A DNA stretch of 64,000 nucleotides from Xiphias gladius. Taxonomy: Eukaryota; Chordata; Actinopteri; Istiophoriformes; Xiphiidae. Below, one piece after another: positions 20,830 to 38,798 of the stretch (the stretch's first letter is position 1; every line of letters starts with the position of its first letter). Both the position numbers and the translations under genes were made by a program. Below the pieces are notes generated by a model. It worked only from the letters and a program-made list of their open reading frames with translations. It was not told the DNA's origin and made no database searches. Location: NCBI RefSeq assembly GCF_016859285.1, contig NC_053404.1, positions 18,573,105-18,637,104 on the forward strand, in the 5' to 3' direction.

Positions 20830-22633
20830 ATGAAGCTGTTGGTCTGGCTCAGCATTCTCCTCTGCCTCTTTGCCTGTCACTTCATAGGTGAGTTCCTCTT
20901 TTTAAAGTCTGTTAATCTTACTTTAGTTTTAAGTACTGTCTCGATAGGGTCGTAACCGCAGTTTAGTTTATTCGTTAAGTGGAAACGCGTTGGGGTTAAG
21001 ACACATGACCAAGTTTGATATGCGTATGTACTAATGTTTATCAAAATAGCTGTGAATCATGTGTGATTCTCCCAGATGTGACAGTGCTGCATTTGTTTTT
21101 GGTGACTACGTGTGTACAAAGGGGACTCTGTCCGATGCTAAATTCCTCAGGCTTCAGTATGTGTGTGTGTGTGCTCAGCAATAATATTTGAGGAGGGAGC
21201 AGGTATCCTGCAGTCCCCTGGGAGAAAGCTCAGTTTTCAGTTTTCCGGACCTGAATCCTCTCTTTGTGAATGGAACGCCATGGAATGCTTGGGAATGTTA
21301 CTTTTTTTTCTCTCTCCTCTTCTTCACAGAGGCCAGAGTCATCCCAGAAGGAGGTACCGTATATAAATAACTTATTTTTCTATACACATCATTTTGTACA
21401 ACAAAACCAAAGATGTTTCACAAATAGTTTTGCTTTTATATAATTTTAATCATTTGCTTACTCAGTCTAATGTTTATTTGGAAACTGTTTTCATTTAAAA
21501 AAATAAAAATAAAATTATGCAAACAGTCTAAATTTTATGCAAAATAGCCAGCCAATAAAAAAACCTTCAAAAACTGGATGCAGTAACCTTTATTTTTGTT
21601 CTCACACAACATTTACTGGGTACGTACAGTAAACATTTTGACAATGACCTCAATCAGCAATAAATACCTAAATAAAAAAATGCACCCACCAAAATGAAAG
21701 TTGCAAGTGTCTGCATTTTTTTTTTGGAAATTCAGGAAACATTTGCCCCTTTTTTGAAATGATGGTACAAAGTCAAAACTTTTTCCAGAACTGATTTAAA
21801 AGGTTATTTTTTTAGCCATTATACCAGGGCGCCTGTTCTATGCTCATTTTTGCTGACTCTTTGTTTTTATATTGGTTTTACACTATTGCCATTTAAACAC
21901 TGTTGTGTTTAAATGGCAAAATTAAGATTTTACTGCAGCTACACCTGAAAAAAAAAAAAAAAAAAAAAAAACTTTTACTGATCTGAAAGAGCAGTTGTAG
22001 ATGTTAGGTATTTTATCTGTATATGCGGGACCCGAGGGACCCAAGAATGTTTGGGGTTTTTTTAAGCAATTTGGAATTTGGAACAATATTGTGAAACCGA
22101 TCACAAATACTCCAACAACAGAAGCCACAGCCATAACATGTTTTATATTTTTGAATTGTGGCTCTCTTCGTCCTGGGAGGAAAAAACCTGCTCTGTAATC
22201 TACAAGTTCACAGCCATGGGGAAAGTACAACAGGCTGACTGAACCAACTGAACCTGAACATTTGGCAGCTTTGGAGAACCCGGGACCTGTCTCACTAGCA
22301 ACACATCATCATTAAATAACTAGTGGAATGCGATAGGTTATATAACAGTGAGCGTATTAGTGTCTGAGTGTGGATTTATCCCTTAACTTGTCTGCTGTCC
22401 TTCCCTGACCTGTTATTTGTGTGTGTGTGTGTGTGTGTGTTTTAGTGCCCTACGATGAACCGCCAGCAGTTCCCTACTGGCCCTACTCCACCTCTGACTT
22501 CTGGAACTACATCGAATACTTCAAATCGATCGGTGCCTACAGCCACATCAACGAGATGGCCCGGGCCTTCTTTGCCCACCAGCCCCTCGGAGACACCCTG
22601 GGATATGAGACCAATGCGGGGCACGAACACTGA
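20830..22633 (+). CDS. otos: otospiralin
   Basis: Three coding exons: 20830-20887, 21330-21353 and 22446-22633 (TGA 22631-22633), 89 aa, the same length as human otospiralin. The start is ATG 20830, directly before the signal peptide [19 protein letters not shown]. The middle exon is only 24 nt, with phase 1 at both ends. The mature part carries [17 protein letters not shown] and [18 protein letters not shown], the strongly conserved otospiralin core. In mammals the protein is secreted by inner-ear fibrocytes and its loss harms hearing; its molecular activity is unknown. Poly-A signals AATAAA lie at 22757-22762 and 22945-22950. A (GT)n run forms part of the tract before the last acceptor. The next gene is cops9, as in the human 2q37 region. 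Confidence 0.95.
22419..22441. repeat. (TG)n run replacing part of the otos acceptor tract
   Basis: The TG run ends just before TTTTAG at 22440-22445, the acceptor of the last otos exon. Confidence 0.85.
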
Positions 22634-23379
22634 GAGGGGTCGAAGGAGCCAGGAGGGGGAGAAAGGGTAGAGAGGGAACTAGAACATCCTAAGTCATTAT
22701 AAAAGGAATGCATTTCTTGCTTCGACTGAAAGGACAGATTATGAGGAGAGATGGAAAATAAACGATAAAAAAACATGCGCAGGAATTTAAATAAGGTGAA
22801 GGAAAAGGGTAGCATACACAAAACTTACTTTCTTTTGTCTAATTATAACACTGTGTGTGTTATTATAGCCCATATGTAGAATTCAGAGGTAGAGGAAGTA
22901 GAACTTCTGTAGGATTGAATAATATCTTCATGTAATATGCCACAAATAAACATGTTTCAAATATCTAATTATGTCTATAAAATCATGTAATTTTCGTTTA
23001 TTCAAATTTCTTTGAAAAACTTCTCAATTATCTTCATCTTTTCTTTCTTTCCCTCGGCCTTTTCTACTTTTTTCCTATTTTTTTTCTTGACTTTCTGAAC
23101 TGGTAACTACTTGAAAGAAATCTAAACTTAGCTAAACTCTATGCTGTAACCCGAAGCCCCACAAATATTATAATATTATAGTGATCACTTTAATTGTTGA
23201 AGTATTATTCCATTGTTTGCATCTCAACACCAAGCTTTATTAGATGACAGAAATCCCGTGCAACTGATAGAGGGTATTTCAACAAGAAGAATTCATAAGG
23301 TAAAATTACGATATAGTTAATGTCGATATTATTAATGTAATCTCCTTATTTGTTAACATTACTACTGTGTACAGTGTTA

Positions 23380-38600: not shown

Positions 38601-38798
38601 GAGCAGCAGCCGGAGCAGCAGGAGCAGGACCAGTATGAGGCGGAGCCCTACCAAAGTGGCCAGGAGGAGCCTCACATGCCCTACCAGCCACTCTCACAGG
38701 GTATGCCCAGCCTGCAGGACATACTGAGGCGCTACGGAGACCAGTGGCCTGAGCAGGACGATCACAGAGCTTATCCAGACGACTACCGCAAGAAGTAA
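32615..38798 (+). CDS. and: actinodin (actinotrichia structural protein)
   Basis: Six coding exons: 32615-32687, 35477-35521, 35924-36069, 36315-36728, 37374-37628 and 37779-38798 (TAA 38796-38798), 650 aa. The signal peptide (residues about 1-29) is split across the first two. Residues 54-115 are the conserved actinodin head: RRLIRNRRNISWYKQN, SDFWAWYKYF, then EMDRIYLAYLQ. The rest is low-complexity, Pro/Ala/Tyr-rich, with paired cysteines in a C(D/N)P...DPxC pattern (for example CDPTKDPYC, CDPKKDPTC, CDPVRDPFC, CDPEYDRDC) and five DPYA-type repeats (residues about 375-450). Actinodins are secreted and build actinotrichia, the stiff fibres of fish fin folds; tetrapods lack them. The paralogue (and1 to and4) is not resolved. 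NIS at 63-65 is a possible N-glycosylation site. Poly-A signal AATAAA at 39210-39215. Confidence 0.93.
32842..33379. mobile_element. hAT-like element with AGTGGTGGGAAAGTAACT ends, interrupted
   Basis: The right end, read on the minus strand (from 33379), is AGTGGTGGGAAAGTAACTAA followed by tandem TACTT/AAGTA motifs. The left end CAGCAGTGAAAGAAGTATTC (32842-32861) is a related inverted end. A TAGGGCTGCAAC-type MITE begins inside it at 33024, so the two are nested. Confidence 0.6.
33024..33215. mobile_element. MITE with TAGGGCTGCAAC end, copy 3 (nested, partial)
   Basis: The left end TAGGGCTGCAACC is clear. The right end is not recognisable and the limit near 33215 is approximate. Confidence 0.5.

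Follow-up and report, generated by a model that had tools for sequence, protein, structure and literature searches.

Otospiralin, actinodin and augurin as probable relatives derived from an early-vertebrate tandem gene pair

Actinotrichia, the fibres of the fin fold that carry collagen, require actinodins, according to a passage of PMC13120675. Passages of the same paper and of PMC4764851 report that jawed fishes have actinodins and tetrapods do not, and the loss of these proteins has been proposed to have aided the change from fin to limb; the repeat motif of the family is given as C(N/D)PxxDPxC in a passage of PMC4764851. Two other families of small secreted proteins bear on the present analysis. 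Otospiralin (Pfam OTOS, PF15182; otos and otospiralin-like in zebrafish) is found in the zebrafish skeletal matrix (in a section of PMC3946537), and in catshark vertebrae all chondrocytes express otos (in a section of PMC13188829). The description 'inner-ear protein', used in an earlier note on this DNA, is therefore too narrow. Augurin (ECRG4; Pfam PF15187) is described in part of PMC10088197 as a hormone-like tumour-suppressor product with a putative furin-like site, and the reference list of that paper contains a title naming augurin as an articular chondrocyte marker. Scavenger receptors, LOX1 among them, are reported as partners of augurin in part of PMC10088197 and in the title of PMC5840397. 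The neighbourhood of teleost and1 has been published as otos, myeov2 (= cops9) and and1, with an ApoD cluster alongside; the relevant passage of PMC6325677 is a gene list only and is silent on kinship. Our literature search found no paper that pairs otospiralin with actinodin or augurin, or with ecrg4, c2orf40 or actinotrichia, and none that pairs augurin with actinodin or actinotrichia, but the link may be in print outside the searched set.

The window analysed here is a stretch of 64,000 nt of Xiphias gladius NC_053404.1, the chromosome called C5 in our genome searches. It contains otos, cops9 and actinodin-1 (and1), and its gene order agrees with the published and1 neighbourhood as far as otos and myeov2/cops9 are concerned. 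The gene models are as follows.

20830..20887 (+), otos exon 1: signal peptide, 58 nt (19 codons plus 1), ending in phase 1
21330..21353 (+), otos exon 2: 24 nt, phase 1-1
22446..22633 (+), otos exon 3: the whole otospiralin domain and the stop codon; Pfam OTOS, E 1.1e-38
23558..23620 (+), cops9 exon 1, matched to the copy on chromosome C14
24674..24746 (+), cops9 exon 2, matched to the C14 copy
29307..29344 (+), cops9 exon 3 and stop codon, matched to the C14 copy
32615..32687 (+), and1 exon 1: signal peptide, 73 nt (24 codons plus 1)
35477..35521 (+), and1 exon 2: 45 nt, phase 1-1; counterpart of 45 nt in and2 and of 48 nt in augurin
35924..36069 (+), and1 exon 3: phase 1 to 0; putative propeptide, furin-type site RNRR and first predicted helix with SDFWAWYKYF
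36070..36314 (+), and1 phase-0 intron, in the same alignment column as introns of and2 and augurin
36315..36728 (+), and1 exon 4: second predicted helix (QEMDRIYLAYLQ...) and beginning of the CDPxxDPxC region
37374..37628 (+), and1 exon 5: CDPxxDPxC repeats
37779..38798 (+), and1 exon 6: DPYA repeats, tail and stop codon

Both genes of interest have full reading frames, with 3 coding exons for an otos protein of 89 aa and 6 for an actinodin-1 protein of 650 aa, and all of their exon junctions are AG/GT; the spliced cops9 exons likewise encode a full protein of 57 residues. The otos stop codon and the actinodin ATG are 9,981 bp apart on one strand, and the three cops9 exons lie in this interval. 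The earlier note had put about 10 kb between the two genes, with a common strand and cops9 in the interval, and had given their exon lengths and phases (19 or 24 codons plus 1 nt, then a 1-1 exon of 24 or 45 nt); in all of this it was right. The otos protein of the window scores 131.4 bits against the OTOS model, above the curated cut-off of 27 bits, and single-sequence structure prediction gives it two helices (pLDDT 65), that is, a low-confidence helical hairpin. The actinodin contains three exact and two degenerate copies of the C(N/D)PxxDPxC repeat, is rich in tyrosine (46 Y in 650 aa), and has nothing at odds with and1 when compared with the actinodin family (and1 to and4).

BLASTP aligned otos and actinodin without gaps over 34 columns with 12 identities (E 1e-6, for a single comparison). 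This is the same match in which the earlier note had counted 11 identities in 30 positions plus an upstream W. The Smith-Waterman score of otos and and1 was reached by none of 2000 shuffles (extrapolated p ~2e-6) and that of otos and actinodin-2 (and2) by 8 of 2000, while the scores of otospiralin-like with and1 and with and2 were each reached by 1 of 2000. The three cross-pairs beyond otos/and1 had p-values of 4e-4 to 1.4e-3 and placed the same residues opposite each other, and the register was identical in all four otospiralin-actinodin pairs. Likewise, the best Pfam match of actinodin-1 among 24,736 models was OTOS, at the same segment as the gap-free match, with E-values of 0.031 for the whole protein and of 0.0045, 0.0016 and 0.0048 for three trimmed forms. 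These scores of 14.6-18.7 bits were under the curated cut-off (27 bits) every time. And1 exon 3 alone (46 aa) had no Pfam match, the and2 domain had none either, neither to OTOS nor to Augurin, and one of seven shuffled decoys matched an unrelated model at E 0.036. The E-values from the whole library are therefore weak when taken alone, and the weight of the case is carried by the directed comparisons. The profile-profile check suggested in the earlier note came out in favour of the link: hhalign aligned the two otospiralins with the two actinodins at E 3.5e-6 (4.1e-6 in a rerun), and none of 300 column shuffles reached the score of the rerun (35.6 versus at most 22.0). A search of solved structures gave nothing significant with either the two-otospiralin or the two-actinodin profile (best E 0.42 and 0.86). 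Judged by these sequence comparisons, the resemblance between otos and actinodin is homology.

The second Pfam match of the trimmed actinodin-1 domain was Augurin, with E-values of 0.0078 and 0.0071 and scores of 16.8 and 17.0 bits, again under a cut-off of 27 bits. No cross-family match reached any curated cut-off of Pfam; the actinodin domain is regarded as a relative below the membership cut-off and is not filed under OTOS or Augurin. It should be noted that augurin was first flagged by Pfam, and that the genome search then placed it beside otospiralin-like. In column shuffles, the score of the actinodins versus augurin was reached in 0 of 300 cases, albeit by a narrow margin (best shuffle 24.3 versus 24.8), and that of otospiralins and actinodins jointly versus augurin was also reached in 0 of 300. 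The direct comparison of the otospiralins with augurin was not significant, as 25 of 300 column shuffles reached the score, and the same was true in pairwise shuffles for otos (p 0.35) and otospiralin-like (p 0.15). The pairwise score of augurin with and1 was reached by 4 of 4000 shuffles and that with and2 by 60 of 4000. By sequence alone, the likeness between actinodin and augurin is thus modest.

The paralogous loci come from the genome of the same fish (690.8 Mb), such that all loci represent a single genome, and otospiralin-like, and2 and augurin are predicted gene models made from genomic sequence. The cut-off of the OTOS profile was passed by two loci only (5 matches up to E 10), one of which lies beside actinodin and the other beside augurin. 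The second locus is the otospiralin-like gene at C16:18317778-18318179. The augurin gene, found by a genome search with the Augurin profile, is located at C16:18309293-18313945, 3.8 kb downstream of otospiralin-like on the same strand, and the order from otospiralin-type gene to augurin is that from otos to actinodin. This augurin is well over the Pfam cut-off, with 207.8 bits when spliced without exon 1 and 94.3 and 89.2 bits for exons alone. A block of cops9 and and2, with the gene order seen in the window, is located at C14:19814827-19831507; no otos partner was found within 18 kb upstream of this cops9. Among the matches listed in comparisons of the flanks, C5 and C14 have apod, cops9 and actinodin in common, and C5 and C16, repeat-like matches aside, only otos/otospiralin-like. 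Nothing gene-like was among the matches listed for C5 and C465. The latter contig carries, at C465:250605-250727, a second augurin-like exon, which can be followed as far as RPDVQQ, where the match breaks off. No last exon was found for it in the surrounding 50 kb, and it looks like a decayed augurin duplicate.

Neither and3 nor and4 was found in this genome in searches with the and1 domain, the and2 domain and a DFWxWY DNA pattern. Matches of the and1 domain on C8, C17 and C24 were considered as candidates, but look like chance. Of the nine matches of the pattern, two were and1 and and2, and the other seven had no fitting frame. Zebrafish possesses both and3 and and4 (in a section of PMC6497306), and in the present fish the two genes have either been lost in the lineage or are too diverged for the searches used.

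The exon design of these genes bears on which of the two families is closer to actinodin. All five gene models have a signal exon that ends in phase 1 and a domain exon entered in phase 1, phase 1 having been required for three of the signal exons. Specifically, exon 1 was chosen among candidates generated by script with an obligatory phase-1 ending (13 for and2, 14 for otospiralin-like and 6 for augurin), and exon 2 of and2 was chosen from a scan for 1-1 exons. Since these exons were preselected for phase, only the exon lengths and the entry phases of the next exons count as evidence; for the domain exons, the phase of entry was taken directly from the sequence, as were the phase-0 junctions. 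The signal exons measure 73 nt in and1 and and2, 70 nt in augurin, 58 nt in otos and 64 nt in otospiralin-like. The 1-1 exon is of 45 nt in both actinodins, 48 nt in augurin and 24 nt in otos; otospiralin-like is without this tiny exon and has an intron of 111 nt. Exon 3 runs from phase 1 to phase 0 in and1 (146 nt), and2 (164 nt) and augurin (170 nt, followed by the last exon). A phase-0 intron inside the domain is accordingly common to and1, and2 and augurin, and in an alignment made blind to introns the junctions GNQEA/VQEM of and1 and GFDEQ/RLET of augurin (slashes marking the intron) fall in one column. With low confidence, this intron can be placed near the turn of the hairpin predicted for otos. 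The intron after 36069, which the earlier note had regarded as a gain of actinodin, need not be one, as augurin has its phase-0 intron at the same column. Lastly, a furin-type site is found shortly before the domain in four of the five genes (RNRR in and1 and and2, RTKR in augurin and REKR in otospiralin-like), whereas no RxKR/RxRR site is present in otos.

Actinodin thus resembles otospiralin in the domain pattern W..SDFW..Y/W..YF..G...EM.R...A, in the phase-1 design of signal and domain exons and in the adjoining position of the genes. It differs in its sub-threshold OTOS score, in the intron within the domain and in its long repeat tail, and from otos also in having the furin-type site. With augurin it has in common a furin-type site directly before the domain, a 1-1 exon of 45-48 nt, the column of the phase-0 intron and the location next to an otospiralin gene. 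Unlike actinodin, augurin is without the CDPxxDPxC tail, the pairwise similarity is weak, and a hormone-like product stands against a fibre protein. Taken together, the nearest relative of actinodin appears to be augurin (ECRG4) and not otospiralin. Of the earlier view that otospiralin and actinodin are ancient tandem paralogues, the homology and an old tandem duplication are supported. The duplication is older than the window alone reveals, as a second pair, of otospiralin-like and augurin, is located on another chromosome and cops9 with actinodin-2 on a third.

We consider it highly probable that otospiralin, actinodin and augurin belong to a single small family whose members are secreted matrix/peptide proteins, and which descends from a tandem pair in an early vertebrate that was copied by chromosome doubling. 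A direct origin of actinodin from otospiralin, through a single local tandem duplication with the intron gained later and augurin unrelated or distant, seems unlikely to us. Such an origin would fit with otos and actinodin being neighbours and with the clearly stronger similarity of actinodin to otospiralin than to augurin (hhalign scores of 35.6 and 24.8). However, augurin and actinodin have in common the column of the 'gained' intron, the exon of 48/45 nt and the motif of the processing site, and augurin itself adjoins an otospiralin gene. Even less credible are two independent tandem duplications after a chromosome duplication, from otos to actinodin and from otospiralin-like to augurin: an identical intron and a 1-1 exon of the same class would each have to arise twice, even though there is one pair per chromosome with the same order on both. 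Chance or convergence between unrelated secreted proteins that have short aromatic helices is the most improbable explanation. In its favour are the short, aromatic-rich segments, the actinodin scores under the Pfam cut-offs and the decoy at E 0.036. Against it are the column shuffles of otospiralins versus actinodins (0 of 300 reaching the score), four cross-pairs in one register, and the flagging of augurin by Pfam before its place beside otospiralin-like emerged.

For the history of a single early pair, what we directly observed is the sequence homology, the exon design and the gene order. The ancestral tandem pair would have consisted of a gene of otospiralin type and, after it, one of augurin/actinodin type. 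It would have been copied with its chromosome, presumably before the jawed vertebrates split, the 1R/2R genome duplications being the simplest occasion. One copy may then have become otos-(cops9)-actinodin, in which the partner was lengthened, and the other the pair of otospiralin-like and augurin that nck2 and uxs1 flank. Later, the duplication in teleosts would have given rise to the second cops9-actinodin block, with and2, on C14. The C16 pair was indeed found between uxs1 and nck2, with human probe sequences. Besides C16, a single nck match was found at E 1e-10, an nck1-type gene on C5 at 4.3 Mb from the pair in the window, and the block argument is therefore one of chromosome-level linkage of one gene pair. 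CNH genes were also considered as a marker of the block; they gave 26 exon matches spread over 11 contigs, which include C5 and C16, and are uninformative due to the matches on the 9 others.

At the protein level, all precursors start with a signal-peptide-like sequence on a phase-1 exon. In augurin, both actinodins and otospiralin-like, this is followed by a putative short propeptide ending at the furin-type site, and then by the domain, which would consist of two helices and a turn; otospiralin may be regarded as the bare hairpin, and augurin as the hairpin with a short tail of its own. The actinodin precursor would be trimmed at RNRR. Its putative hairpin, a fold that augurin would share, would then probably form the mature amino terminus and attach to a partner in the matrix or on the cell surface. 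The CDPxxDPxC repeats and the tyrosine-rich tail, which belong to actinodin alone, would build the actinotrichia together with collagen. A more tentative idea, to which we give a limited chance of being correct, is that actinodin is a structural branch of the augurin hormone family, with augurin as the surviving ohnologue, and that furin-type enzymes cut at RNRR to expose the hairpin, which would retain, in the fin fold, a role in binding or signalling like that of augurin. If so, the loss of actinodin at the fin-to-limb transition would have taken away not only a fibre but also a signal.

The link to otospiralin and augurin gives actinodins an origin, predicts a testable processing step at RNRR, and points to a shared ancestry of the three families in connective tissue. 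As these families appear to descend from one ancient gene pair, relatives of the lost fish gene probably survive in other vertebrates; mammals have both otospiralin and augurin. Human OTOS and COPS9 presumably lie in one neighbourhood, and the place to seek remnants of the lost actinodin in tetrapods is beside these two genes.

Two further features of the window lie upstream of otos. Apolipoprotein D-like exons at positions 13349-19128 match C14:19841988-19843351, and an apod match is thus also located near the cops9-actinodin-2 block on C14. They probably represent the teleost ApoD clusters mentioned in the passage of PMC6325677. In addition, an open frame at positions 1046-1240 resembles a RhoGAP domain by eye, which would fit the set of arhgap21, apod and otos reported for Solea BACs in passages of PMC6236887 and PMC6829477.
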